From the IMG/VR virus record IMGVR_UViG_3300047121_000433, positions 1-36,297 of that record: 36,297 nt of DNA; one strand, given 5' to 3'. The position numbers were made by a program, and so were the translations under genes. Positions 1,872 through 36,297 of the stretch are shown here, piece by piece. This stretch comes from a virus. Below the pieces are notes generated by a model, which made no database searches, was not told the origin of the DNA, and worked only from the letters and a program-made list of their open reading frames with translations. How positions within the stretch are numbered: position 1 is the first letter of the stretch; each line of letters starts with the position of its first letter.

Positions 1872-4496
1872 CTATTCAATCTTGATCTTTGAACCGTCAG
1901 GCCGTGTCGCCGTCTTTGGCCGGCCAAGCACCTCGGCAAGAGCCTGAAGCCCCATGCCTACCGCATCCGAACTCTTGTCCGGCTTCTCGGATTCGGCCTT
2001 CTCGTTCTTCTTGGCGTTGGCCTCACGGTCGTAAGCAGCCATCGTCTGTTCGTGATTGAAGCCCTGCTCACGCGCAGCGCTCGCATCCGCAAGCCGCGCC
2101 ATCTCGATGTTGGTCTTGGCTTCGATTTCCTGCGCCTTCAGCTCAAGCTCACGCTCTTTAATTGCTGTCTCGCGTTCCTTCAGCGAGACTTCCCGCTCCT
2201 TGAGGGAAAGCTCCTGCTGCTTGATGTTCAGCTCGCCACTCTTGAAGCCGATATCCGCTTCAGCCGTAGCCGCGGCCATCGGGTCAGCCGGCTGGACAGC
2301 TTCCGGCATCAACAGCTTCTGCGTCTCGGCGCGTATCTTCTCGATGGTCGCAATCTTCTCATCGACATCAAGCTGGCCGTCGCCGCCTTCAACCATGCCG
2401 CGTTCGAACGCGATCTTGCCCGCCTCGTGGAACAGCTTCTCGGCTTCCTTGGCGGTCTTCTTCGTCTGCTGTTCCTTGAGGTCGTTATCCAGTTCAAGGC
2501 TGCGAAGCTCTTCCTTCGCCAGCGCCGCCTGATGCTCATCAAGCGGGCTCGGACCTTCAATGAACGCCTTGGGCCAGTCTGCAATGTTCGCCGCCTGAAG
2601 CTCCTGCTCCTGTATCCAGCGGTTATCGATGCCGGGCTGGCCTTTGAACTGAGCCAGATACTGCGCACGCATCATGCGCTGCATGTCGGTCACGGAGCGG
2701 GGATCTGCGCCCGGCGCAACGTCCATGTTCTTGAGGTCGAAGTCCTTTGCCAGTTCAGCAAGCGCCTCGGGGCTAAGCTGGACAGGCTGCGGCCTAGGCT
2801 TCGGCTGCTGCATCATGCCAGCGCCAGGCATCGGAGGCGGCGGCGCAGCCATCTCAGGCTGTTGGGGCATCTCAGGCGCACCCGGAGGCATCATGCCGTT
2901 GGGGACCATCAGCCCGCTCGGGCGCTGTTGCATCCCCGGCATCGCTGGCCCGCCCATGCCCATCATCGGCATCTGCTGCGAGCCCGGAGGCGGCATCCCC
3001 ATCAATTCGAGGAACAGTTCCTCGTCATCAAGAAACTCGGCATAGATGGCCGGGTCCAGATACCGCGCATTGAGGCGCATGAGGAGGCGGAACTCCTTGC
3101 GCATCGCCCGGTATATGCGCGTGTAGATCGTGGAGAAGACCTGCATCCCCTGCTCGATCAGGGCAAGGGTTGCTCCCATCGCCTGACCGCTCGGGGCCTC
3201 GCCCGTCATCACGTCCTTGACGCTGGTAATGTCTGCGGCTGCTCCAAGCAGGAACTCGACCAACTGGAACAGCACAGGGCTTGGGCCTGCAAACTGAAGC
3301 TCGTGGATGGCGTCCGAGACACGGCCAGGAACGTTCACGTTCAGGAACTCTGCCGGCTTGATGCGGACTTCCCCGCCCCGAAGCCTGAGCCCCTGTGAGA
3401 TGAACCCGCCGCCCGCGTTCTGCCTGTGCGCTGCGTCGAATATCTGGTTCAGCGCCGTGTTGATCGCAGAGCCGAGGCTTTCGAGAAGCTGGCCGAAGCC
3501 CATGCCGTAGACCGAGCCCTCAATATCCGGCAGGAAGCTGTAATCGATCCACGGGCTCTCCCGCATGATCGTCTCAACCTTGCCGTCCATCGAGTTGACG
3601 CGGATCGAGTTCGAATAGAACGCAGCCTCAAGCCTCACCAGCTCGCGCTCATCCTTGGAGATGGTGGCGATATAAGGCTCCATCATCCCGTCGCCGTCGA
3701 GGTCGTAATACCTCACTTGCTCCAGGTAGATGCACGGCTTCTGGCTGTCCTCGTCCTTCTGGCCCTCGTAATCCCGCTTGTGGTTCAGCCACTTGCCCGA
3801 GCCTATCAGGCGATCGATCTCGTAAGGGTACATCGTCGTGGGCTGCGTCATGCGCGGAGCACGGTCGAAGCTCGGCGCGTCGTTGGCGACAACCACATCC
3901 TTCGCTGAGGTAAACTCCAGCGTTGGCCGGCCCATGTCTGCGCGCCAGTAGCCCTTGCGGAACCCTGCGCCGATCACGGGGAGCATGTGCAGCAGCTTGT
4001 CGGTGCCGCTGTCCCACTCGTCCATCATGTACATGAGCTGGTAGTTGCCAAAGCGGCTGAGACGATCAGCGCGCTTGGCCTTCAGCCCTTGCGGGTCTTC
4101 TCCGACAACTTTGCAGATCATCGGCTGGTCGGAACGGGTTATCGCGCCATAAGCACGAGCCCCGAACTGGTTCATTGCTGTGGTGAGCAGCGGGTATTTG
4201 ATGTTGCTTGCACCCTCGAAAGGGTAATTCTTCTTCTCGGGCTTCTGCCGGGCGTTCTTGATGGCGCGGTCTACGCCGTTCAGCCACTCTTCACGGCTTT
4301 TCTCGTCATGCTCGTATTCACGCACAGCCTCTTCGGCCATGCGCTTGCGGTCTTCTTCGCTCAAACGCTCTGCGAGGTTGCCGTCATATTCGGCAATGCT
4401 CGCCAGGTTCTGCGCTGTTTTGCGCGAGCCTCGGCCCTTGCCCAGCTTGTCGGCATCGCCGTCCAGCTCGCGGTTATAGGCGAGGTTCTTCGCCAT
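1872..4496 (-). CDS. Portal protein, P22-like, extended C-terminus
   Basis: This 874-residue protein is placed directly after the large terminase genes, where podoviruses encode the dodecameric portal, the DNA entry and exit ring of the head. The N-terminal 480 residues have portal-type features: a charged alpha-helical start, NYPFEGASNIKYPLL, the DVVVANDAPSFDRAPRM region and the GMGFGQLLESLGSAIN helix. Residues about 500-570 are an unusual Met/Pro/Gly-rich linker. Residues about 620-830 are long coiled coil with repeated KERE heptads near 759-789, reminiscent of the helical barrel of P22 portal. The start ATG at 4496 overlaps the preceding stop. At 874 residues it is longer than P22 gp1 (about 725). 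Confidence 0.9.
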   Translation of the reverse strand: MAKNLAYNRELDGDADKLGKGRGSRKTAQNLASIAEYDGNLAERLSEEDRKRMAEEAVREYEHDEKSREEWLNGVDRAIKNARQKPEKKNYPFEGASNIKYPLLTTAMNQFGARAYGAITRSDQPMICKVVGEDPQGLKAKRADRLSRFGNYQLMYMMDEWDSGTDKLLHMLPVIGAGFRKGYWRADMGRPTLEFTSAKDVVVANDAPSFDRAPRMTQPTTMYPYEIDRLIGSGKWLNHKRDYEGQKDEDSQKPCIYLEQVRYYDLDGDGMMEPYIATISKDERELVRLEAAFYSNSIRVNSMDGKVETIMRESPWIDYSFLPDIEGSVYGMGFGQLLESLGSAINTALNQIFDAAHRQNAGGGFISQGLRLRGGEVRIKPAEFLNVNVPGRVSDAIHELQFAGPSPVLFQLVEFLLGAAADITSVKDVMTGEAPSGQAMGATLALIEQGMQVFSTIYTRIYRAMRKEFRLLMRLNARYLDPAIYAEFLDDEELFLELMGMPPPGSQQMPMMGMGGPAMPGMQQRPSGLMVPNGMMPPGAPEMPQQPEMAAPPPPMPGAGMMQQPKPRPQPVQLSPEALAELAKDFDLKNMDVAPGADPRSVTDMQRMMRAQYLAQFKGQPGIDNRWIQEQELQAANIADWPKAFIEGPSPLDEHQAALAKEELRSLELDNDLKEQQTKKTAKEAEKLFHEAGKIAFERGMVEGGDGQLDVDEKIATIEKIRAETQKLLMPEAVQPADPMAAATAEADIGFKSGELNIKQQELSLKEREVSLKERETAIKERELELKAQEIEAKTNIEMARLADASAAREQGFNHEQTMAAYDREANAKKNEKAESEKPDKSSDAVGMGLQALAEVLGRPKTATRPDGSKIKIE

Positions 4497-5254
4497 CAGT
4501 AGCCCGTCACGCTGTCAGCAGAGCGGCGCGCGTTCTGGCGCTCGGCTTCCTCGCCAGCCGCTTCGTTGCCAAAGCGCGCATAGCGGAGGCCCGTCATCAT
4601 GAGATACCGTGTCGCGTCCATCAGGTGATCGTTCTCTTTCACGATATGCACATGCAGGCCGCGCGGTGTCTGGCTCTCGACGCGCCGGTAAAGCCTGAAC
4701 TCTGCAAACCAGTTGCGGCAGGTCGTGAACACCTTCAGGCGCCCACTCTCAAGCCTGCGGGTGATAGCCATGATGCCCGCCTCAACCGCGTTGTCTGCGG
4801 GGTAAAGCTCAAGCCCTAGCTGTCGGTACTCTTCCAGCAGGTTGGAGCCGTCCTTCTGGTTCGAGCCGGCAGAGGCAGGATCGATCGCGCCCGGAATGTC
4901 GCCTGCGCCCTTGATGGCGTCAGCATGGATCTGAGGCGGGCGCTGGCCCTGATAGTATTCGGCGTAAATGTAGACCGTGTCGGTATCCCGATCGTGCGCG
5001 CCCCAGATGGCAGCAGTGCGCTTCCAGCCTACGTCAAAGCCATAGGCCCGCGGCCACCAATCGGGAATGCGGAACGGCTCAACTGTGAAGATGCTCTCGT
5101 CTATCGGGTAGATGGCGCCAGCCCCAAGCATCGGGATGCCCTTGGCGCGTGCGTCGCGCTGGTGGGCGGGATAGCTCTGAAGCATCTCTTCCTGATCGGC
5201 CTGCGGAATGTGCGGGACATCCGCCCAGCCAATCTGCTGCATGTACTTGCTCAT
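4496..5254 (-). CDS. Terminase large subunit, nuclease half
   Basis: This 252-residue ORF encodes the RNase H-fold headful nuclease domain that normally forms the C-terminal half of a single terminase polypeptide. Candidate metal-binding acidic residues are D74 in YGFDVGW, D125 in AIDPASAG and D213 in HLMDATRY. The DVPHI, HQRDARAKGIPMLG and ADNAVEAGI segments are also typical of P22-type large terminases. ATG at 5254 overlaps the stop of the ATPase half by 4 nt (ATGA). A -1 slip there would fuse the two halves without loss (TVS then MSKYM). It could therefore be a genuine two-polypeptide terminase, a frameshift product, or the result of a one-base sequence error. Confidence 0.9.
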   Translation of the reverse strand: MSKYMQQIGWADVPHIPQADQEEMLQSYPAHQRDARAKGIPMLGAGAIYPIDESIFTVEPFRIPDWWPRAYGFDVGWKRTAAIWGAHDRDTDTVYIYAEYYQGQRPPQIHADAIKGAGDIPGAIDPASAGSNQKDGSNLLEEYRQLGLELYPADNAVEAGIMAITRRLESGRLKVFTTCRNWFAEFRLYRRVESQTPRGLHVHIVKENDHLMDATRYLMMTGLRYARFGNEAAGEEAERQNARRSADSVTGY

Positions 5255-5982
5255 GAGACAGTCGGCGCGAGATGGGGCATGAACTGCAACGTAACCTCGG
5301 TCATGCCCTCGATCGGCGTGAAGGTCGCCATGATCATCCCGCCCGTCGTCAGCGTCCGGGTCAGGCCCTCGACGTAGATGTCCATGGGCGGCTCCTCATC
5401 GAACCACACAACGTCACGCTCAGTGCCCTGCCACGCCTTGCGGCCCTGGTCGTAAGAGCGGAACTGGATGATGGAAAACCCGCCCGCCACATGCCGGACG
5501 AGCGCGAAGTCCACATGGTTCGGGATGCCCATAGCTGGCGCGATACGCCCCAGCCGCTTGCCCGGTATCAGCCCCGTACCCCGCGCACTTGGCGGGCCTA
5601 GAAGCTTGCCCACGAGAATGTCGCGGGTCGTCGTTCCCGTGTCGCCTCCACAGAGGATGTTGACTGGCTTCTCGAAGCGCCTGCCCGGCCACCAGTCGGG
5701 ATAATCACCCGTCAGGTGCAGGGCTACCTCATAGCCGCCTAGGCCCTCGGTCTTGCCTACCCTGTTGGCAGCGATTGCAGCCCGCTCGCGGTGCTCTTTT
5801 CCAGCAGCGAAAAAGGCAAGATGTTTCGCATAGAGCGCACGGCGTAGCGGTCCCTCGTCCGGGTAGTACGCATCAATCTTGCGCTGGGCCTTCGCATTCT
5901 CACGTCTGCGCGCAAGTTCCTTTCTCGCGGCCTTCAGCAGCGCGAGACGCGCCCGCTCCTGCGGGTCACTCGTCGCCAGCAT
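5251..5982 (-). CDS. Terminase large subunit, ATPase half
   Basis: This ORF holds the packaging-motor ATPase. From ATG 5982 the Walker A motif AANRVGKTE lies near residues 71-79, Walker B VVWFDEE near 191-197, and the coupling motif ATFTP near 219-223. The protein stops about 20 residues later, just where the linker to the nuclease domain begins, and the nuclease is encoded by the next ORF. An in-frame TTG at 5991 is an alternative start. ATG 5982 is preferred because it is canonical and overlaps the small-terminase end by only 17 nt. It works with the small subunit and portal to translocate DNA into the prohead. Confidence 0.9.
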   Translation of the reverse strand: MLATSDPQERARLALLKAARKELARRRENAKAQRKIDAYYPDEGPLRRALYAKHLAFFAAGKEHRERAAIAANRVGKTEGLGGYEVALHLTGDYPDWWPGRRFEKPVNILCGGDTGTTTRDILVGKLLGPPSARGTGLIPGKRLGRIAPAMGIPNHVDFALVRHVAGGFSIIQFRSYDQGRKAWQGTERDVVWFDEEPPMDIYVEGLTRTLTTGGMIMATFTPIEGMTEVTLQFMPHLAPTVS

Positions 5983-6298
5983 CTTCGCCAAGCTGGGCTA
6001 TCAGCTCCTGAACCTGATCATCCGTCATGGTCCCGAGCGCGCCGACAATCGCCAAAGGCCCGCCATTTGCGCCTGTGATGGCCTGTGGGGGCTTTCCGAA
6101 GCGTCGGTCTAGCAGGGAGTTAGCTGCAACGGCTCTGGCCGCTGGCGGGGCTTCCTTGTCCAGCGCAATGGTCTTGAGCGTGACAACCATCTGCTTCAGA
6201 TCCACATTGCTGTCGATCAGGTCGCGGACTTCCTGCGTTCCCTTGTTTCGCTGGCCTTTCTTGCGGCCTGCGTTGTCTCTCTTGCCGCCTCTGGGCAT
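5966..6298 (-). CDS. Terminase small subunit candidate
   Basis: The 110-residue product starts MPRGGKRDNAGRKKGQ, the basic N-terminal signature of a widespread phage family encoded just before large terminases. A short alpha-helical region with AARAVAANSLLDRRFGKPPQA follows, then an acidic tail. Small terminases recognise the pac site and load the large subunit. Here the role rests on position and family resemblance. An upstream in-frame TTG at 6346 would add 16 residues. ATG 6298 is chosen because the conserved part begins there, although only a weak ribosome-binding site is visible. Confidence 0.75.
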   Translation of the reverse strand: MPRGGKRDNAGRKKGQRNKGTQEVRDLIDSNVDLKQMVVTLKTIALDKEAPPAARAVAANSLLDRRFGKPPQAITGANGGPLAIVGALGTMTDDQVQELIAQLGEDAGDE

Positions 6299-6396
6299 TT
6301 CTGAATTCTCTGATTGTTTTTCGATTTCTCGATGACGCAGCGTCAAGCCGCTTTGATAGTGCGGGAGCGACGGTCCAGCCCATCTGCCTTCCTTGG

Positions 6397-6636
6397 TTAG
6401 CTTGTTGCAGGCTCGCCGCGGACGGTTACCGCCTCTGCGTTCCTTGCGTCCTCGTGTTGGGCCGCTATGCGTGCGTGCTCGCAGGCAAGGTCGTATTCGG
6501 CGCGGAGGTCTTTCATCGCCTGGCTTAGAAAGCTTTTGCGGTGATCGGGGCGCATCCTGCGGAAGTTGCCGGGGAATTTCACCACAGCCTTGCCGCCATG
6601 GTGGAAGCCGATGATCTTCACAACGGTTCGGAGCAT
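6397..6636 (-). CDS. Small conserved phage protein, unknown
   Basis: A 79-residue protein starting MLRTVVKIIGFHHGG at ATG 6636, which overlaps the upstream stop by 4 nt (ATGA). It is basic in the middle (NFRRMRPDHRKSF) and then helical and charged. No domain is recognised. The longer frame upstream of this ATG runs antiparallel in another frame through the previous gene and is not used. As a small gene just ahead of the terminase genes it may be a regulatory or packaging accessory, but nothing in the sequence proves that. Confidence 0.6.
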   Translation of the reverse strand: MLRTVVKIIGFHHGGKAVVKFPGNFRRMRPDHRKSFLSQAMKDLRAEYDLACEHARIAAQHEDARNAEAVTVRGEPATS

Positions 6637-7217
6637 CAGCGCCTCGGTGTCAGCTTTGCTTTGGCTTTGGGAGGCTGGGTTGGCGTCGGTTTGGCCGATA
6701 AAGCCGCAACCTTCAGCCGGGGCGCAACTGGCTCTGCCTTGCCGGGCGGGCTGTGGATATCTGACCACGCTTCCTTAATGGGGCGCTTGGTTTCCAGCTT
6801 CAGGGTCGGGGCTCTGTTGACCTCGACGACGACCTCGCGGATGCCGCTCTCCCCGGCGATGCGGTGTCCGACCCAAGGTCGGATCACAGCCGTATTGCCG
6901 GTTATTAAGGCCTTTGCGTCGGGCCAGTGATCTGTGACCTGGATGTGCAGGCCGGGGTGAATCTCCGCGTATTCGCGGGCAATGGCGTGGCGGGCTAGTT
7001 CCTCAAGATGCGCCTCGGCGTTTTCAGCCGGCATGGAAGCAACGTCCACGCCCTTGACGGCCTTGATGACAGCCTGACGGATCTTCTCGTCTGTCCAGTC
7101 GTTAGCTCTGACGATGCCGACAGGCTCAATCCGGGTCTTGCTGAAGAACCATGCGCCGATCGCGACAGCGAAGGCCAAGGCAATCAGGATCAGGGCGTAG
7201 TCGCCTACGTTGAGCAT
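6636..7217 (-). CDS. Membrane-anchored phage protein, unknown
   Basis: Starting at ATG 7217, which follows a GGAGG run at suitable distance, the 193-residue protein has one N-terminal hydrophobic helix (about residues 5-25, YALILIALAFAVAIGAWFF). A soluble mixed domain (about 30-150) and a Pro/Lys/Ala-rich C-terminal tail follow. An earlier ATG at 7244 lacks a ribosome-binding site. It is the first gene after the 194-bp non-coding gap behind the nusG-like gene, so it may be the first late gene. No function is recognised. The topology suggests one membrane anchor with the bulk of the chain on one side. Confidence 0.65.
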   Translation of the reverse strand: MLNVGDYALILIALAFAVAIGAWFFSKTRIEPVGIVRANDWTDEKIRQAVIKAVKGVDVASMPAENAEAHLEELARHAIAREYAEIHPGLHIQVTDHWPDAKALITGNTAVIRPWVGHRIAGESGIREVVVEVNRAPTLKLETKRPIKEAWSDIHSPPGKAEPVAPRLKVAALSAKPTPTQPPKAKAKLTPRR

Positions 7218-7411
7218 GGGAGCCCCCTCCCTGATTTTGGACATGGCTCTGGTTACGGTCGTTTTGTACGACCAACCTCGCGGGACGCTCGGTTGCTAAC
7301 CTACTCGCGGTGAATGCCGCGTATGCCCCGGTCGATAGCTGTCACGAACAGCACGAAAACAGCCCTGCCCTATTCTTGCCTCGCTTCGCGCGCGAACACA
7401 ACCCCTAGTGG
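7218..7411 (-). promoter_or_regulatory. Non-coding gap between early and late operons
   Basis: This is the only sizeable gene-free stretch in the leftward arm between the switch and the window start. It sits directly after a NusG-like gene and before the membrane-protein/terminase genes. It holds two perfect short inverted repeats, one at 7257-7273 (GGTCGT with a 5-nt loop) and one of 5 bp near 7359-7373 (GCTGT-N5-ACAGC on either strand). Neither is followed by a T-run on the minus strand, so neither is a classic intrinsic terminator. I see no clear sigma-70 promoter. By position it could hold a late promoter or an antitermination (qut-like) site, which is inference. Confidence 0.4.
7257..7273. 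repeat. Perfect 6-bp inverted repeat, possible operator or hairpin
   Basis: GGTCGT and ACGACC flank a TTTGT loop. It lies in the non-coding gap about 40 bp before the ATG at 7217. It could be a protein-binding palindrome or an RNA hairpin in the late leader. Confidence 0.4.
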
Positions 7412-7933
7412 TCAAGCAGCTTTGGAACACTCCGAGACGGGAATGCGCAATTCCGTTTCCCGGCCCATCATCACCAGATCGAAGATCGCTTCCCCGCGCT
7501 GAATGTCTTTCACCCGAAGCTCAAAGCCTGCGAAGGACGGGCTGTCGATCGTGACCATCTCGCCGACCTTGAACGCCGCTTCCAGATGGCGGAAGTGCTT
7601 GAAATAGTCCGGCAGGTTGAAGTCATCGAAGCCGAGGAAGTCCGACAGCCCCTTGGGGTGAAGCTGGGCCGGGCGCCCGTTGTAGCTGACAACGCTCCGG
7701 ATCAGGTGGCAGTTGTGAACCTCCATCCACGGATTGCCCTTGGTCCCGACGAACACATAGCCAGGGGCTGCGACATATTCCTTGTCCGTCCGCTTGCCGT
7801 TGATCCATTTCCCAAAGCGGCGCTCCTGCTTCGTGAAGGCTTGATGCCCCCTGTAGATCAAAGCCTTTTTGACCATGTCCTCGCGCTGGCTGATGACGCG
7901 CAAGGCGTACCAGTTCATGTCCCCCGTGGTCAT
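7412..7933 (-). CDS. NusG-like transcription (anti)termination factor
   Basis: This 173-residue protein has the two-domain plan of NusG, RfaH and LoaP. The N-terminal NGN domain shows NWYALRVISQRED at residues 7-19 and the family-defining APGYVFV at 56-62. A C-terminal KOW-type beta-barrel runs from about 121 (FKVGEMVTI) to 167. NGN domains bind the RNA polymerase clamp and suppress pausing or termination; KOW domains contact ribosome or Rho partners. The gene is the last of the early leftward operon, directly before a non-coding gap and the late genes. Lambdoid phages keep the Q antiterminator at that place. A role in late-gene read-through is therefore inferred. ATG 7933 overlaps the upstream stop by 4 nt. 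Confidence 0.85.
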   Translation of the reverse strand: MTTGDMNWYALRVISQREDMVKKALIYRGHQAFTKQERRFGKWINGKRTDKEYVAAPGYVFVGTKGNPWMEVHNCHLIRSVVSYNGRPAQLHPKGLSDFLGFDDFNLPDYFKHFRHLEAAFKVGEMVTIDSPSFAGFELRVKDIQRGEAIFDLVMMGRETELRIPVSECSKAA

Positions 7934-8079
7934 CGCCGTTTCCTTTCGTGTCCAATGGAGCCGATAGCCAGCAGGCTCAGGGCGAGGACGCCGAAGCCTG
8001 ACAGGATGATGTTCAGCGACTGCGGCGCGTACAGAAACAGCGCCACGAGGCCGAGAATGCAGAGCGCGGATATCCTCAT
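7930..8079 (-). CDS. Membrane miniprotein (49 aa)
   Basis: The 49-residue ORF starts MRISALCILGLVALFLYA at ATG 8079, which overlaps the preceding stop by 4 nt, and it ends overlapping the nusG-like start by 4 nt. It is almost entirely hydrophobic, with two possible membrane helices (about 2-18 and 22-42) and a basic end HERKRR. It is the third of three tiny membrane genes in a row. It could act as a holin-like, inhibitor or membrane-stress protein; none of this is shown. Confidence 0.6.
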   Translation of the reverse strand: MRISALCILGLVALFLYAPQSLNIILSGFGVLALSLLAIGSIGHERKRR

Positions 8080-8192
8080 GATCCATCCCCGCCCTTGCTG
8101 TGCCACTTGCCCCACGCCCACGTTCCGCCGATCACGAGGGCCGCGATGCCGCCGAACAGGGCGATGATCAGAAGCCAGTTGGGTTCAGTCAT
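8076..8192 (-). CDS. Membrane miniprotein (38 aa)
   Basis: This 38-residue ORF (MTEPNWLLIIALFGG...) has a single hydrophobic helix at about 6-27 followed by a short Gly/Lys-rich tail. Its start overlaps the upstream miniprotein gene and its stop overlaps the start of the next by 4 nt. The tight packing supports it as a real gene. No function is recognised. Confidence 0.55.
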   Translation of the reverse strand: MTEPNWLLIIALFGGIAALVIGGTWAWGKWHSKGGDGS

Positions 8193-8292
8193 GCTTGCGC
8201 CCCCATCCGAAGACGAAGCTGAGCGCCGGGAGCGCGAGGCAGATGCCCAGCAGCACGAGGCAGACGTAAAAGCCCTGCGAGATCCAATCCAT
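8185..8292 (-). CDS. Membrane miniprotein (35 aa)
   Basis: A 35-residue ORF starts at ATG 8292, an ATGA overlap with the preceding gene, and reads MDWISQGFYVCLVLLGI. It has one membrane helix (about 7-28) and a charged end GRKHD. It is the first of three consecutive membrane miniprotein genes before the nusG-like gene. No function is recognised. Confidence 0.55.
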   Translation of the reverse strand: MDWISQGFYVCLVLLGICLALPALSFVFGWGRKHD

Positions 8293-8858: not shown

Positions 8859-9119
8859 CTACGCCCGCTTGCGCGGAAAGATCTGGTCCTGCGTCCATGC
8901 GTATGCCTTGGGCGCGGGCTGCTCTGGTGACTGGCGATCGGTGAGCGTCAGAAGCTTGCGGGCGCAGGACGGGCAGTAGGTCTTGCCCTCCGTCGGCTCT
9001 GAGCACTCGTAAGCGCTGCCGTGCCGGTAGCTGACCTTCTTGCAGAACTGGTTCGGTTCCTTGGGCTTGTTCGTCCAGCGTTCGGTGCCGCGAGGCTTGG
9101 GATAGTATACGGATGACAT
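8859..9119 (-). CDS. Small Cys-rich (zinc-knuckle-like) phage protein
   Basis: Starting at ATG 9119, which follows a GAGGAGG ribosome-binding site and abuts the upstream stop, the 86-residue product has a basic N-terminus and four spaced cysteines in FCKKV, YECSE and YCPSCARK. They may form a zinc-binding site. The YCPSC motif resembles half of a zinc ribbon. In the early operon such proteins can be nucleic-acid binders. No specific family is recognised. Confidence 0.65.
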   Translation of the reverse strand: MSSVYYPKPRGTERWTNKPKEPNQFCKKVSYRHGSAYECSEPTEGKTYCPSCARKLLTLTDRQSPEQPAPKAYAWTQDQIFPRKRA

Positions 9120-9685
9120 TACGCTGCCTCCTCGCTCTCGCATGACCAGACTTCGCTCTGGCGCTGGATGTCGGTTGGCCAGCCCGTGTCATCGGTGAAG
9201 CTGCGCTCGATGAACAGGACGCGGTTTGTCGGCTGGGCCGTGAAGCGTCCGTTCCTCAATGCCAGGAACATGAATTCTTTGCTCTGTTCAGGCTCTGCGC
9301 TGAAGCCATCGTTGAGCGGGCAAACGGTGAATAGGTACTCGCCCAGATGCTCTGCGCTTGCGCATTTGACGCGGGCTTCAAGGCCGTGCAGATACGTGTA
9401 GCGCACGAGCGAGAACTGGTCGCCGTAGCAGTCCCAATGCTGGCTTTGCTCAAGCGTCCACGGCTCGGCGTTAGCGTGCTGGGCAAGCGCATGGAGCGGC
9501 AGATCACGGACGACTGCGCCGTTCTCAAGCATGACGTGACAGCCCCATGCGCGGCCCGGATAAGCGCGAAGGCCAAACCACACCGCGGGCTCTGTGCCGG
9601 TCTGCTCGCCAGTGCGGACAAAGCTGCGCTCAACGTGGCAGTAGATGTGCTGGGGGAGGCTTCCTGATCCGGTGCAAAGGGTCAT
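9119..9685 (-). CDS. Conserved phage protein, unknown function
   Basis: The 188-residue protein starts at ATG 9685, a 4-nt overlap with the dnaA-like gene. It has several strongly patterned segments (PQHIYCHVERS, VWFGLRAYPGRAWGCHVMLE, PLHALAQHA, HWDCYGDQFS, GEYLFTVCPLNDGFS, PEQSKEFMFLALRNGR) that I recognise as a conserved protein of alphaproteobacterial phages. It looks like a compact soluble domain rich in aromatic, His and Cys residues. No enzyme motif is identified. Its place in the replication operon suggests an early function. Confidence 0.75.
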   Translation of the reverse strand: MTLCTGSGSLPQHIYCHVERSFVRTGEQTGTEPAVWFGLRAYPGRAWGCHVMLENGAVVRDLPLHALAQHANAEPWTLEQSQHWDCYGDQFSLVRYTYLHGLEARVKCASAEHLGEYLFTVCPLNDGFSAEPEQSKEFMFLALRNGRFTAQPTNRVLFIERSFTDDTGWPTDIQRQSEVWSCESEEAA

Positions 9686-10155
9686 GCTGCCACCAGTTCG
9701 CCGTCGAGAGCGTGCCACGACATCAGATCGATCGACGCCACGACGACATCCGGCTTTGCGATCTGCATCGGAGGCGGCGGGGTCCAATCGGAGGACGAGC
9801 CCGCAGGCACAGACACCAGCTTGCCGATGCGCAGCGACACAAGCTCTGCGATACGCGCCCGGCATTCGTTCAGGCGTGCAGCCAGCTTGGCGTCTTCCGG
9901 TTCTCGCAGAGACACCTTGCGATCCGCATAGAGAACCGTTGTGTGATCCCGGTCCCCGAAGTGACGGGCGATCTGCGGATAGCTTGCGTTGGTCAGCTCC
10001 CGCGCCAGCTTCATGGCCTCTTGTCGCGGTCCCGAAAACATCCGCTTGCGACAGGCGCCTTCCAGCACGTCCACCGTCAGGCCGTGCATCTCAGCCACGA
10101 CGGTTTTCACCTCGTGGATCTTCGCTTTGAATGTTGTTGTTCCCAGCCCAAACAC
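9682..10155 (-). CDS. DnaA domain IV-like DNA-binding protein
   Basis: The 157-residue protein consists mainly of a region resembling the C-terminal DNA-binding domain of the bacterial initiator DnaA. It has a helix around PRQEAMKLARELT, then YPQIARHFGDRDHTTVLYAD, which carries the RDHTTV signature that reads the DnaA box. There is no AAA+ ATPase domain, so it cannot form the ATP-dependent initiator helix alone. It may mark the phage origin, compete with host DnaA for boxes, or act as a regulator. It lies downstream of the DUF1376 and loader-like genes. The C-terminal 60 residues are of unknown fold. Confidence 0.85.
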   Translation of the reverse strand: MFGLGTTTFKAKIHEVKTVVAEMHGLTVDVLEGACRKRMFSGPRQEAMKLARELTNASYPQIARHFGDRDHTTVLYADRKVSLREPEDAKLAARLNECRARIAELVSLRIGKLVSVPAGSSSDWTPPPPMQIAKPDVVVASIDLMSWHALDGELVAA

Positions 10156-18954: not shown

Positions 18955-19298
18955 GCCTGGACCTGCTCACCACTGAACAGGTTGCACAGATCCTTAAGGT
19001 CAAGGATCGCAAAACCGTGCGGAAGCTCGTGAAATCGGGCAAGCTGCGCCGTGTTATCATGGGCGAGCGCAGCGTGAGGTTCCGTCCGGAAGACGTTGAA
19101 GCATATGTGCGAGGACTGCCGTGTCACTCACCCGCCGAGGCCGTATCTGGCACTACGAATTTGAAATCGCTGGAGAACGTTATCGCGGGACCACGCGGCA
19201 GACGGAAAAGCCCAAAGCGCGGATCGTTGAACGACGCGAATACGAGCGGCGCCGTGACCAGCTTACCTTGGGTGAAACAAAAGGAACCGTCACTCTGA
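18951..19298 (+). CDS. Excisionase-like HTH protein
   Basis: The 115-residue product begins at GTG 18951. Residues 1-60 form a winged HTH of the excisionase/MerR-like helix-turn-helix_17 type: LLTTEQVAQILKVKDRKTVRKLV, then SGKLRRVIMGERSVRFRPEDVEAYV. Placed just before the integrase, it is the natural candidate for the recombination directionality factor. The last 58 residues overlap the integrase start in another frame by 178 nt and are low-complexity, so the real folded domain probably ends near residue 60. Confidence 0.75.
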   Translation: MSLDLLTTEQVAQILKVKDRKTVRKLVKSGKLRRVIMGERSVRFRPEDVEAYVRGLPCHSPAEAVSGTTNLKSLENVIAGPRGRRKSPKRGSLNDANTSGAVTSLPWVKQKEPSL

Positions 19299-20197
19299 CG
19301 GACGCCTCGGTCGCGTGGTGGACCGCAAGGGGTCAACACCTGCGATCAGCCGGCACAGTCGCCATCCGGCTGGAAATCCTGCGGCGCTGCCTGGACTTCT
19401 CATTGCCCGCCCGATCGATCGACACGCCAGACGTTGAAAAGGCCATGTCTAAGCGTAGGGGCGAGGTCACGCACAATGGCAGGCTGACGACGCCATCAAC
19501 CGCGAACCGGGACATTATCGACACCCTGCGCCCGATCCTGAACTACGCCAGGCGCGTGATGAAGGTTCAGGGGATGCCAGAGATAGATTGGTCCGCGCTG
19601 CGCTTGCCAGAGCCAAAGGGCCGGGTTCGCGAGTTCACCGCAGCAGAGATGACAGCCATCCGGGCTAGGCTGGCGAGCGTCCCGCACCATCTGGCCGTGT
19701 TCGATTTCATCTCGACGTTCGGGGTTCGCCTGCGCGAAGCATGGTTCCCGCTGAACTGCCTTGACGTGGACGGGCGCCGCATCTCCCTGCGCAAGCGCAA
19801 GGGCGGGGACTGGCATACCATCCCGATCAATGAGGCATGGGCGCGCGACCTAGCCGCGCGCTCTGGACGGGCCACCAAAGCCCGCCTGCGCTATGTCTGG
19901 TTCTGGGAAGACCGCGACGGCTCAATCCACGAACTCTCGCCCAGCAGCTTCCAGCACTACATGGCCGACACGCTGGACGCCCTTGGCATCCATGACGCCC
20001 GCCCGGCCCACGACCTGCGCCACCATGCGGCCACGCAGTACGTCAGGCGAACGGGTAGCTTGGCCGGCGCAAAGCGTCTGCTGGGTCACGAGAACATCGC
20101 CACGACCGCACGCTATGCCCACGCCTCGGAGCAGGACGTGCGGGATGGTCTGTTCGGATCTGAGCCCGCTCCGGCCAAGCAGGACAAGGCGTCATGA
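19121..20197 (+). CDS. int: Tyrosine recombinase integrase
   Basis: The 358-residue protein begins at GTG 19121 with GAGG six bases upstream. Its first 60 residues have the arm-binding pattern RRGRIWHYEFEIAGERYRG. The catalytic domain shows Arg203 (FGVRLREAW), the His297-x-x-Arg300 box HDLRH, His323 in LGHENIATT and the nucleophile Tyr332 in RYAHAS. A Lys in the KRKGGDWHTIPI hairpin fits the fifth catalytic residue. It lies 100 bp from a tRNA-Leu fragment that is probably its attP core, and follows an excisionase-like gene. It would catalyse integration and excision. Confidence 0.93.
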   Translation: MSLTRRGRIWHYEFEIAGERYRGTTRQTEKPKARIVERREYERRRDQLTLGETKGTVTLTDASVAWWTARGQHLRSAGTVAIRLEILRRCLDFSLPARSIDTPDVEKAMSKRRGEVTHNGRLTTPSTANRDIIDTLRPILNYARRVMKVQGMPEIDWSALRLPEPKGRVREFTAAEMTAIRARLASVPHHLAVFDFISTFGVRLREAWFPLNCLDVDGRRISLRKRKGGDWHTIPINEAWARDLAARSGRATKARLRYVWFWEDRDGSIHELSPSSFQHYMADTLDALGIHDARPAHDLRHHAATQYVRRTGSLAGAKRLLGHENIATTARYAHASEQDVRDGLFGSEPAPAKQDKAS

Positions 20198-21384: not shown

Positions 21385-22604
21385 CAGTAGAGACCTTGCG
21401 TTGCGGCCTTCTCGCCACGCTTGCGGCGCCAGTCTCCGTAGACCTTGACGATGTAGCCAGTGACCGCGATGCCGCCGACGACAACACCCGTGAGGACAAG
21501 GTTGCTGAGAACCGGATCGCCCTGAAGTGTTTGCGCCCCGCCCTGCAACGTCGTGCCGAACACGCCGAGCGAGCCGAGGCGGATCATCCCGATTCCCGCC
21601 TGCTGATACCAATAGCCTTTGGCGCGGTCGCTCTCCTCAAGAGGCTTGAGGCCAGCTTGCGGGTCGATCTTGTAAGGGACTTCAGCAGGCGCGACGGTGT
21701 TCGGGCTCTTGGCCTTCGTTCCAGCCGGAGCGGGAATTACCGCAGGCACAGAAGCAGGCGCCGGTCGAGCCGAAGGTACTGGCTGGGGAGCTGGGACCGT
21801 TGGCTTGACCGACACCGCTTCTGAGGAACCACCGACAGAAGGCTTGATTGCAGTGCCAGCCGACGCTGGGCCGGGCAGCGGCGCCGGCTGGACCGCCTTG
21901 CTTGCGATCGGCACGACCGCAGGCTCAGCTTTTGTTAGAACGAGTTCGGGCAGTTCATCGGGGAGCGGGTAGCGTTGCGCCACGGCGAGCACGTCCTTGA
22001 ATGCGGTCTTGCTCAGAACCCGGTCTGTGCCGACGTTGCCGGGTGGTCGTTCACGCACGAGGCCGATCGCGTCGTCAGCGCAGGCGACGGTCCATGAATA
22101 GCCCATCCACAAGCAGGATTCACTGTAGCGGCGTCTCAGCAGGCCCCGCAGCGCTTGCTTATGCTTGCCGCTTGTTGAGTAGAGCCACGCTCCAAACTGG
22201 TCGGCAGCGTTATCGAAGCGGTTGGCGTTCACATGCTTCAGCAGTGTTGATCCAGCGAGGGCGCTGATACCGCAGTTAAAGGCGAAACAGACGAGCGCCG
22301 AGAACTGGTTTGAGTTGAGCGGGACCGTCACCAGACGCTTGACCGCGGCTTCATACTCAATGAGCTGATCCGCCAGAAGCGCCCGCGCGCTTGCCTCGTC
22401 GCTGAGCCTGTCGGTTGGCAGAACCTCCATGCCGCCGAAAAACTTCGTGCAACCATAGCCAATGGTCAACATATCGCCAGGGCAGATGTACGGCTCCATT
22501 GCCGCGCCGCCCGGCGTCAACGGAACGCTACCGTCCTGCGGCCCCCGCTCGTACTCGGTGAGAAGTTCTAGGCCGAACTCGTTCAGCCTGTGATGATCGT
22601 TCAC
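21384..22604 (-). CDS. GH24 (T4-type) lysozyme with C-terminal membrane anchor
   Basis: The protein (about 406 residues from GTG 22604, which overlaps the Hsp70 stop as GTGA; a GTG at 22616 adds four residues) has a GH24 muramidase domain in residues 1-165. Glu in LLTEYERG is the catalytic acid candidate, followed by a Cys/Thr pair in YICPGDMLTIGYG. An insertion of about ten residues separates Glu and Cys compared with usual members. A long Pro/Ala-rich linker (about 205-310) and a final hydrophobic helix (about 370-390, LVLTGVVVGGIAVTGYIV) follow. There is no N-terminal signal. The C-terminal anchor is unusual for an endolysin. Confidence 0.85.
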   Translation of the reverse strand: MNDHHRLNEFGLELLTEYERGPQDGSVPLTPGGAAMEPYICPGDMLTIGYGCTKFFGGMEVLPTDRLSDEASARALLADQLIEYEAAVKRLVTVPLNSNQFSALVCFAFNCGISALAGSTLLKHVNANRFDNAADQFGAWLYSTSGKHKQALRGLLRRRYSESCLWMGYSWTVACADDAIGLVRERPPGNVGTDRVLSKTAFKDVLAVAQRYPLPDELPELVLTKAEPAVVPIASKAVQPAPLPGPASAGTAIKPSVGGSSEAVSVKPTVPAPQPVPSARPAPASVPAVIPAPAGTKAKSPNTVAPAEVPYKIDPQAGLKPLEESDRAKGYWYQQAGIGMIRLGSLGVFGTTLQGGAQTLQGDPVLSNLVLTGVVVGGIAVTGYIVKVYGDWRRKRGEKAATQGLY

Positions 22605-24124
22605 GTTGAGCCCCACTCAATGTCGCCGCACATTCCATAAGCCTCGCCCCGGCTGTTGAGGCCGACCGTGAACGGCACGCGAGCGCTGCGCGGATCACCC
22701 GGCTCCAACGGCACGTCGATGCTGTGAAGCAGCTCGCAGGACGCAGCGCGGTCATGGTCGCCGGCAACGATGCGAACAGGCATCACGCTCTGGCCGGGCT
22801 CGCGGTTCGTGAGGATGAACGGCAGAACGCGCTCGCTCGGATAAGGCGTTCCGCGGGGAATGACGACAGACGCCACGCCCTCCACTTTGTCGTAGACTTC
22901 CACCGCGATCGACCATGAGGTGATGTCCGAGATGGTCAGGTCAGACTTCCGGCCCTCAAGCACAGCAGCGCGGATCGCAGCGCCAAGCGCAACCGCCACT
23001 TCGCAATCGATGTCGGTCTTGGCTTCCTGCCCGAACACGTCTTTCGCCATCGCCTGAACAGCCGGCATTCTCGATCCACCGCCGACGAGGACCACGTCGT
23101 TTAGATCCCGCTTTGACGAGAAGTTGGCGTCTTTCCGTGTAGCCTCTGCGATGGCGACGAGGCACGCAGCGCGCATCCGCTTGAGGAGGTCTTGCGAGAG
23201 ATGTTCCAGCAACGGACGATCGACAATGTAGTCCATGTGGAGGTCCGTCCCGCCTGGGCTTCGGTCGAAATCCTTGATGCGGAACTCCGACTTGACCTTG
23301 CGCGAGAGGCGCTTCTTCACGTCCTCTGCTTCCTGAAGAACCAGCGACATCGCCGTGTCATCGACGGCGAGGTCAGTACCCTCATGATCGGTCGCCCACT
23401 TGTGGACAATGTACCTGCCAAGGATGGCGTCCACATCGCTCCCGCCCGTAATGCTGGAGCCGCCCGTGCCGAGAACCGTGACGAGGCCAGAGCCTGTCTG
23501 GATGATCGACACATCCGTGGTGCCGCCGCCCACATCGAGGACGGCAATGCGACGAACTTTTTTGAAATCGTAGCCATATGCGAGCGCTGCCGCGGTCGGC
23601 TCGTCCATCAGCTCGACATAGGCAAGGCCCGCCATCCGGCCTGCTTCCTCAACCGCCTTGCGCTGGCTTGGAGAGAACGTGGCCGGGACGCAGATCACCG
23701 CCGCATCCGGCTTCTCGCCCTTGAACTTTGCCGTCGCCGCATCGAGCAGCTTGGCAATGAGCATCGAGCAGATTTCAACGGGGCTGTACGTGTGTCCGTC
23801 CGGTCCTTGATAGTGCAGCGCGCCATCGGGAGCGCCTACCGTCTGGTAGCCCTGATCTTCGTCCGGGTGCCACATTTCACCCAGCTTCCGCTTTGCCAGC
23901 CTGAAGCAGAAATCGGGGAAACGCTTGCCCGATTCAATGCCATCAAGGCCGACGAATATCTGGCTTTCGCCCGGCCCTACGGCATCGGCAGGGACGATGG
24001 TGACGACCGAAGGCATGAGCGGCGAGCCATCAACGGAGATGACTTCCGGCACGCGCCCATTGTACCAGGCGATGCTGCTGTTGCTCGAACCCAAGTCTAG
24101 GCCCACGACTCTAGAAAGTTTCAT
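22601..24124 (-). CDS. Hsp70 (DnaK-like) chaperone without C-terminal lid
   Basis: The 507-residue protein keeps the Hsp70 nucleotide-binding domain: phosphate-1 loop GLDLGSSNSSIAW at 8-20, the DnaK-Lys70 equivalent K78 in AKRKLG, VPATFSP at 146-152, DEPTAAALAYG at 174-184, phosphate-2 loop DVGGGTTDV at 197-205 and adenosine motif LVGGGSRMPAV at 346-356. The hydrophobic linker and a beta substrate-binding domain (about 400-500) follow. The alpha-helical lid of DnaK is absent (507 against 638 residues). ATGA overlaps tie it to a membrane protein upstream, GTGA to the lysozyme downstream. I see no J-protein or GrpE gene here. Confidence 0.93.
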   Translation of the reverse strand: MKLSRVVGLDLGSSNSSIAWYNGRVPEVISVDGSPLMPSVVTIVPADAVGPGESQIFVGLDGIESGKRFPDFCFRLAKRKLGEMWHPDEDQGYQTVGAPDGALHYQGPDGHTYSPVEICSMLIAKLLDAATAKFKGEKPDAAVICVPATFSPSQRKAVEEAGRMAGLAYVELMDEPTAAALAYGYDFKKVRRIAVLDVGGGTTDVSIIQTGSGLVTVLGTGGSSITGGSDVDAILGRYIVHKWATDHEGTDLAVDDTAMSLVLQEAEDVKKRLSRKVKSEFRIKDFDRSPGGTDLHMDYIVDRPLLEHLSQDLLKRMRAACLVAIAEATRKDANFSSKRDLNDVVLVGGGSRMPAVQAMAKDVFGQEAKTDIDCEVAVALGAAIRAAVLEGRKSDLTISDITSWSIAVEVYDKVEGVASVVIPRGTPYPSERVLPFILTNREPGQSVMPVRIVAGDHDRAASCELLHSIDVPLEPGDPRSARVPFTVGLNSRGEAYGMCGDIEWGST

Positions 24125-29411: not shown

Positions 29412-29448
29412 GGGGCTGGCACGGCTCGAACCGTGTTTTCCCAGCCCC
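29412..29448. other. Strong stem-loop upstream of moron gene
   Basis: GGGGCTGG (29412-29419) pairs with CCAGCCCC (29441-29448), and inside it CACGG pairs with CCGTG around a CTCGAA loop, with a TTTTC bulge. The 13-bp composite stem ends 5 nt before the ribosome-binding purine run of the gene at 29469. It may regulate translation, act as an attenuator, or be a protein target. Confidence 0.6.
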
Positions 29449-29468
29449 TAACGGGAAAGGACCCCGCT

Positions 29469-29936
29469 ATGACGAAATATACGCAAGATCGTCCCTTTGA
29501 ACAGCAGGCTTGCCTCGCGTTCGTTGGGCTCTCGGTCGTGACGGCTACCCTCGGCTTCTGGGCCAAGGGTTGGCTGCCTGGAATGCTCCTGACGGTCGCA
29601 ATGGCCGTTATCGTGTTCCTCCTGTCGCGCGCTGTAGAGCGTGTGCAGGAAGCTTGGGAAACGAAGAACTGGTTCACCGCAGTCGTCGCTGGCACGCTCG
29701 CCCTCGGCTTCTGCTTCATTGAGGCTGGCCTCAACCACATCGGTTTGGAGCATCTCAATGCAGAATACCGGATCGCACCGGAATGGGCTTTGTGGCCCGC
29801 CTGCTTCTTCATCTCCCTCGTGAATGTCTTTGCATCGTTCGGCTTTGCCCGCACCCTGCGAGACAATCGGATACAGGCTCCGATCACGAACCCGGCCCGC
29901 CAGCTTGCGGAACTCCGCTGGAAAAAGTCCGCCTAG
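29469..29936 (+). CDS. Four-helix membrane protein (moron)
   Basis: From ATG 29469 with a GGGAAAGGA site, the 155-residue protein has four likely membrane helices (about 12-30, 31-48, 61-83 and 104-123), separated by short loops. It is coded against the surrounding late operon and followed by an intrinsic terminator, so it is an independent transcription unit. Such morons often alter the host surface or exclude other phages. The shorter start is taken rather than an upstream in-frame start lying within the stem-loop. Confidence 0.7.
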   Translation: MTKYTQDRPFEQQACLAFVGLSVVTATLGFWAKGWLPGMLLTVAMAVIVFLLSRAVERVQEAWETKNWFTAVVAGTLALGFCFIEAGLNHIGLEHLNAEYRIAPEWALWPACFFISLVNVFASFGFARTLRDNRIQAPITNPARQLAELRWKKSA

Positions 29937-29940
29937 AACG

Positions 29941-29973
29941 AAGCCCCTGCCTTAGTTGGCGGGGGCTTTTTCT
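29941..29973 (+). terminator. Rho-independent terminator of the moron
   Basis: AGCCCCTGCC pairs with GGCGGGGGCT over a TTAGTT loop (10 bp with one G-T) and is followed by TTTTTCT. It ends the rightward moron and overlaps the stop region of the leftward ejection gene. Confidence 0.85.
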
Positions 29974-35807: not shown

Positions 35808-36297
35808 TCGCTCACCACGGAAAACCTAATGGAATGTCCGCGATCATAACCCAAAAACTCGTTGAGGTTGCCCGTTCCGCGCTCCAAAGCTGCTGCAACC
35901 GGTGACTTATCCGCAAGTCCTAGTGATTGTCCCGTCCGACCACCAACAAGGTCCATGAGGACATCAAAAGCCTCTTGCGGTATGTCCATAATGTCGGACG
36001 TGTTCACCACATCCTCGGGGACACGCTCATAGGAGATGCGCAGCGTACCTGCCGCAATCGTCGCATCGGGAACAGGCCAGATGTAAACCGTGGTGGATGT
36101 GCGCTGTCGATCGACGGCGAAGATGGTCGGGCGTCCCGTGCTGGTCTTGACCGGGATGCGCTCGTAATCGTCCATGTTCCATTGCTGCATCTCCAGGTCA
36201 TACCCGGCTGCGTTGCGGTAGTAGACGCGGTGGACGCGATCGGGACGCGGGCTGCACGTCACATAAGCCTGCGCTGCGGTCATGGCTGGCGTCTGCG
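35804..36297 (-). CDS. gp4-like head-tail connector, N-terminus cut
   Basis: The visible 164 codons match the C-terminal part of P22 gp4-like/tail-accessory connectors: RVYYRNAAGYDLEMQQWN, DDYERIPVKTSTGRPTIF, TTVYIWPVPD, GTLRISYERVPEDV, and MDIPQEAFDVLMDLV. Known members have about 80 more residues in front. The ATG at 36283 is internal to that fold and the frame is open to the window end, so the gene is probably truncated by the edge. The protein would sit below the portal and hold the gp10-like hub. Confidence 0.75.
   Translation of the reverse strand, partial: QTPAMTAAQAYVTCSPRPDRVHRVYYRNAAGYDLEMQQWNMDDYERIPVKTSTGRPTIFAVDRQRTSTTVYIWPVPDATIAAGTLRISYERVPEDVVNTSDIMDIPQEAFDVLMDLVGGRTGQSLGLADKSPVAAALERGTGNLNEFLGYDRGHSIRFSVVSE

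Follow-up and report, generated by a model that had tools for sequence, protein, structure and literature searches.

A NusG-family gene with a linked structured leader as a candidate Q-like late-expression cassette in a lambdoid-type phage genome

Phages have evolved several unrelated Q proteins for the control of late genes. In the lambda/21/82 type, the regulator is the last early gene and its site lies directly downstream, where a promoter-like box and a leader precede a single long late operon; allelic variants of regulator and site move together as a cassette. Specialised NusG paralogues are also resident on plasmids. Those of the UpxY, TaA and ActX kind lie beside their target operons, which are bacterial capsule, polyketide or conjugation operons. 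RfaH and LoaP work at the leaders of long operons (PMC7593976, PMC12691694); the former is a two-domain paralogue whose expected effect is less polarity in foreign operons of great length, and is tied to the ops element, while the latter, from Bacillus, is encoded next to its target operon and uses the dfn/mln leader RNA hairpin. A further dedicated antiterminator, GafZ of the Caulobacter gene transfer agent, serves one phage-like late cluster with an untranslated leader; it resembles no known antiterminator, uses host NusG and has a proposed site between -35 and -10 (PMC11150451). rfaH-like genes on prophages have been mentioned earlier (PMC7593976), and NusG/RfaH homologues of phages are present in BFVD and as PHROG 6386, by homology annotation only. 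What is known is the occurrence of NusG homologues in phages, from such annotation, and the specialised NusG paralogue as a kind of factor. The openly accessible full texts searched gave no account of position, leader or role for the annotated phage homologues, and in none of them was a phage NusG paralogue described as a late regulator with a cognate leader.

The window analysed here comprises 36,297 bases and is the whole of an IMG/VR virus record. End repeats are absent and a gene is truncated at the left end, so the genome is nearly complete at best. Its gene order resembles that of a lambdoid temperate phage, with the following landmarks:

12714, plus strand: repressor-like gene, facing the gene in the Cro position (12626, minus strand)
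19121-20197, plus strand: integrase
Early arm, minus strand: includes DUF1376 and DnaA-C replication-type genes
7412-7933, minus strand (ATG at 7933): NusG-family gene, NGN and KOW domains, 173 aa, final gene of the early arm
7218-7411: junction gap between nusG and the late genes, 194 nt
6636-7217, minus strand: first late gene, encoding 193 aa with a hydrophobic segment at the N-terminus and belonging to no family
Start at 6346: probable small terminase
Late arm, minus strand: terminase, portal, structural genes and phage lysozyme

All substantial open reading frames from 12626 to 7412 are minus-strand frames that overlap slightly or leave only short gaps, which bears out the first-pass annotation in naming the NusG-like gene as the final early gene. 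The same annotation described the gap behind it as the only one in the arm, followed by packaging genes. No gap in the early arm or at its junction is larger, but another of about 160 nt is found at 1262-1421; the terminase genes do follow, about 1 kb from the gap, but the membrane-anchored 193-aa frame and a frame of about 79 aa intervene. The late operon extends over ~23 kb, from 7217 down to 1 and, resuming at 36297, to about 20650. Its start codon, ATG 7217, is kept in the relatives L004, L007 and L018.

Several neighbouring genes are worth recording in their own right. Three tandem tiny membrane-protein frames (about 35-50 aa; 7930-8292) stand directly ahead of nusG, the last of them (MRISALC...) being shared, with its position, by L004, L005 and L007. 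The early arm also encodes a stand-alone DnaA C-terminal DNA-binding domain (9682-10155; PF08299, E=1.5e-20) and a protein (9119-9865) matching PHROG 3704 (E=2e-20), whose label 'ferredoxin' looks doubtful. The large terminase is split into overlapping ATPase (5991-5251, Terminase_6N) and nuclease (5254-4496, Terminase_6C) halves, within 4496-5991; the split recurs in L034, L037 and L039 and is therefore not a sequencing error, and the remaining relatives carry one single, unrelated terminase instead of the pair. In the late arm, a phage Hsp70 of the DnaK type (22601-24124, 507 aa, PF00012, E=2.5e-83) adjoins the lysozyme gene. A plus-strand gene for a 167-aa membrane protein (29433-29969) opposes the late operon, with a strong terminator behind it (29940-29969); L006 holds a DNA copy, ~75% identical and reversed, behind its first late gene, and the unit is mobile and moron-like.

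The NusG-family protein possesses an NGN domain (Pfam NusG PF02357, 37.8 bits against a cut-off of 22.2) and matches PHROG 6386, 'transcription antiterminator' (E=1.9e-14). The KOW domain is also present, since the family profile aligns Thermotoga NusG through both domains (residues 7-169). An AlphaFold model of moderate confidence (four relatives as input, mean pLDDT 69) consists of an NGN domain and a beta-barrel KOW with strands at E127-E172, and structure comparison of this model retrieves NusG and RfaH among solved structures; the autoinhibited alpha-helical KOW of RfaH does not appear in it. The protein scores below the cut-offs for housekeeping NusG (TIGR00922, 32.2 vs 135.7 bits), NCBIfam LoaP (25.2 vs 125 bits) and NCBIfam UpxY (34.5 vs 100 bits). 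The Q-family domains PF03589 and PF06530 are absent, and a Pfam search of the protein gives NusG alone. That the protein is a complete two-domain NusG homologue is strongly supported, and it is probably a specialised paralogue.

Relatives were gathered by scanning viral contigs with the NusG protein, the leader patterns and the portal. Identity of NusG to the window is 98% for L004 and L005, 85% for L006, 72% for L007, 66% for L018, 41% for L039 and 31% for L038. In all seven, nusG is followed by a gap and then by late genes, and the order nusG, leader, late genes, terminase is common to the window, L005, L006, L007/L015, L018, L038 and L039. The genes behind the leader vary: L005 and L006 have an unrelated first late gene and terminase in place of those of the window, and in L007 both terminase and portal are of another kind. 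Three leader hairpins described below (HP1-HP3) remain beside nusG despite these exchanges. Between the window and L005, identity runs at 39-40 per 40 positions through nusG, the leader and HP3 and drops to background from the boundary of the fourth hairpin (HP4) and the ATG; because it collapses at the first late gene, the leader belongs to nusG and not to the genes downstream. It is strongly supported by these comparisons that nusG and the leader form a linked cassette, behind which the downstream genes have been exchanged.

The joint movement and divergence of leader and protein gene, over 31-98% protein identity, speak against the possibility that the paralogue has a global action, whether by opposing Rho, by taking over the host or by competing with host NusG, and that the leader is a separate late 5' region driven by a promoter of its own. 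The housekeeping-like KOW of the model fits such a role, as does the absence of an ops-like site (none in 7218-7411 at up to 2 mismatches), but given that joint movement we regard this explanation as quite unlikely.

Some candidates from these scans were set aside. L010 is 50% identical over 32 residues, yet lacks a NusG domain; pattern matches in L019 and L023-L033 are chance hits in coding or unrelated sequence; and a leader better conserved than nusG is found for L004 alone (98.7 vs 94%). No prophage relative was found when the genome collection was scanned with NusG and portal alignments, and the nearest named portals and integrases belong to alphaproteobacterial, cyanobacterial and other phages. 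L042 is a portal relative without NusG; in the place where other relatives carry nusG and the leader, upstream of its terminase genes, there is a strong, GC-rich hairpin with a brief T-rich run behind it (5490-5630; GCCCGCC...GGCGGGCTTTCT).

The check proposed in the first-pass annotation, for a leader motif shared by related phages that carry this protein, yielded a promoter-like box and covarying hairpins. All elements of the leader are given on the minus strand:

7372-7401, minus strand: promoter-like box, TTGTGT (7401-7396), 18-nt spacer, AAGAAT (7377-7372)
7359-7365, minus strand: GGGCTGT, region where the late leader RNA presumably starts
7338-7352, minus strand: HP1, GCTGT-TCGTG-ACAGC, from stem search and covariation
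7322-7336, minus strand: conserved stretch ATCGACCGGGGCATA, HP1-HP2 interval
7306-7321, minus strand: HP2, CGCGG-cattca-CCGCG (CGCCG/CGGCG in L006)
7274-7305, minus strand: AGTAGGTTAGCAACCGAGCGTCCCGCGAGGTT, a conserved stretch that hardly varies across L004 to L006
7257-7273, minus strand: HP3, GGTCGT-acaaa-ACGACC, no T-run behind the hairpin
7218-7231, minus strand: HP4, GGGAG-GGGG-CTCCC, abutting ATG 7217, its loop being the G-rich ribosome-binding stretch

The box follows the pattern TTGNNN-N18-ANNNAY (TTG-N21-ANNNAY) just after nusG. Its TTG and spacing are kept in 8/8 leaders (the window, L004, L005, L006, L007, L018, L038 and L039), with the spacing constant from 98% down to 31% NusG identity and the spacer sequence variable; GGGCYGT likewise occurs in all eight, 36-38 nt downstream of the TTG. 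Among 2.9 million viral contigs the box pattern has 7 matches, representing four distinct alleles with some from near-identical contigs, and every one lies directly after a nusG-like gene. In L038 the box has a near-consensus TTGACG. The leader contains no match to a sigma70-consensus promoter, the -10 hexamers being mostly devoid of the A/T pair that sigma70 requires; the box may act as a promoter. The spacer is unlikely to be a binding site, because proteins 98% identical (L004/L005 vs the window) face quite different spacers, and a Q-type binding element (QBE) between the boxes, as in the lambda/21/82 type, is therefore unlikely here.

The hairpins were first found by an unfitted stem search. 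The two perfect short inverted repeats of the first-pass annotation are real, but the gap holds more than two, namely four perfect or near-perfect hairpins. All four are common to 6/8 leaders, while the leader of L038 has the box alone in common. A covariance model built only from the three near-identical leaders of the window, L004 and L005 retrieves L006 (5.8e-32), L018 (3.3e-18) and L007 (2.1e-08) and no convincing site elsewhere, the next best (E=0.003) lying within coding sequence of L033. Across six leaders, in an alignment fitted to the structure model, 119/120 paired cells (99.2%) can pair, against only 36-49% in slid-partner controls, and two-sided changes are found in 11 of the 21 pairs (0/500 shuffles). 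With MAFFT alignments as input, RNAalifold scores the four most different leaders at z = -3.3, and three further sets range from -2.0 to -3.2. Folded singly, the window leader has an ordinary energy (z = -0.7); what exceeds chance is its conservation among the relatives together with the compensatory changes. Related leaders known so far number only six to eight. No Rfam family was found in the window. As a coding sequence the leader was rejected, since a 44-aa frame open in the window and L006 has an early stop in L004.

Several of the pair variations are G-U pairs, which are meaningful only for RNA of the late-sense strand, so an RNA transcribed in the late direction is favoured over a DNA cruciform. 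The presence of sense-RNA G-U pairs among the compensatory changes also speaks against the gap as an element that works as DNA, for packaging (pac/cos) or replication for instance, which its distance of about 1 kb from the terminase genes might suggest; since the gap is moreover kept where the terminases, and in L007 the portal as well, are unrelated, this reading is extremely improbable.

HP4 stands apart from the other hairpins. No second GGGG-loop stem like it occurs on the window's minus strand. It differs whenever the first late gene differs, and because it changes with that gene it probably serves its translation. In a rival explanation the whole leader would serve the first late gene by governing translation or mRNA stability, HP4 gating the ribosome-binding site and nusG being a mere neighbour. 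The position of HP4 against the ATG, its kept G-rich loop, its covarying stems and a leader without a terminator all agree with it; the box, on the other hand, occurs only after nusG, and box and HP1-HP3 persist in L005 and L006 despite a replaced first late gene. As it covers HP4 and not the rest, this explanation is unlikely for the leader as a unit. On the opposite strand, HP4 and an invariant upstream AAAAT read in most leaders as a hairpin followed by GATTTTGG (7218-7238), a weak terminator, which possibly acts as an antisense terminator shielding nusG from opposing transcription.

No intrinsic terminator was found on the sense strand of 7218-7411, contrary to the read-through of a leader terminator envisaged in the first-pass annotation, and terminator-like sites across the late region occur at chance frequency only. 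Nothing visible thus needs read-through, which would leave Rho or pausing as the target; the paralogue is accordingly likelier to relieve Rho-dependent polarity or pausing than to read through a tR'-like terminator. A consensus elemental-pause pattern, compared by eye, was rejected as a conserved feature: it fits the window and L006 and fails in L007, L018 and L039. Paralogue and hairpin-bearing leader could instead work in the opposite sense, the phage NusG promoting pausing or termination there in an autoregulatory attenuation of the late genes. Some NusGs do stimulate pausing and termination, as reported for the Bacillus protein (PMC8060035). The specialised paralogues studied so far are antiterminators (PMC7819879), however, and in lytic growth there would be little point in having the last early product block the late genes, which renders attenuation very improbable.

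Taken together, the place of the gene, its linkage to a structured leader and the family of its protein suggest that the locus is a late-expression cassette. Judged from sequence comparison, Q's role is here probably taken by a loader of the RfaH/LoaP type, a NusG paralogue that would act at the leader and make late transcription processive. In such a scheme the last early gene would yield the specialised paralogue, which would load on host RNA polymerase during transcription of the leader, from the presumed promoter (7401-7372) through HP1-HP3, displacing or pre-empting host NusG. It would then stay on the polymerase and, along the ~23-kb late operon, keep pausing and Rho-dependent polarity in check. 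We infer that the leader RNA, as for LoaP, may be recognised rather than non-template DNA, as for RfaH, and that the outcome may be antitermination or anti-polarity.

The Q-like antiterminator suggested in the first-pass annotation therefore survives in layout, the arrangement of a Q-plus-site cassette fitting well, but not in its parts: a sigma70-consensus promoter, ops, membership of a Q family and a leader terminator were not found. Like Q of the lambda/21/82 type, the gene comes last in the early arm, directly upstream of its presumed site, a promoter-like box leading through a leader into one long late operon, and gene and leader move as one cassette in several alleles. In contrast to Q, the protein has the NusG fold instead of PF06530/PF03589, and its leader lacks a sense-strand terminator. 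LoaP has in common a NusG paralogue beside the target operon and a hairpin-bearing leader, but its UNCG-type hairpin is not conserved in the phage leaders, which are also without a leader terminator. With RfaH the protein shares the two-domain paralogue architecture and the expected relief of polarity, whereas ops is missing; with UpxY, TaA and ActX it shares residence beside the presumed target operon, and with GafZ the likely part of a dedicated regulator for one late cluster behind a leader.

Gene and leader together resemble lambda's Q and its site, a counterpart that may have arisen independently. The chances are about even that it represents a further class of phage late regulators, a NusG paralogue with a cognate structured leader RNA in exchangeable, co-diversifying alleles, unrelated to the known Q families. 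If this is true, late control derived from a universally conserved elongation factor would link paralogues of the RfaH/LoaP type to phage late switches and would suggest a phage route for their spread. To our knowledge, target recognition by NusG paralogues is understood in only a few cases, and the allelic series described here (31-98% identity), with its matched leaders, would offer a ready-made set for studying it.
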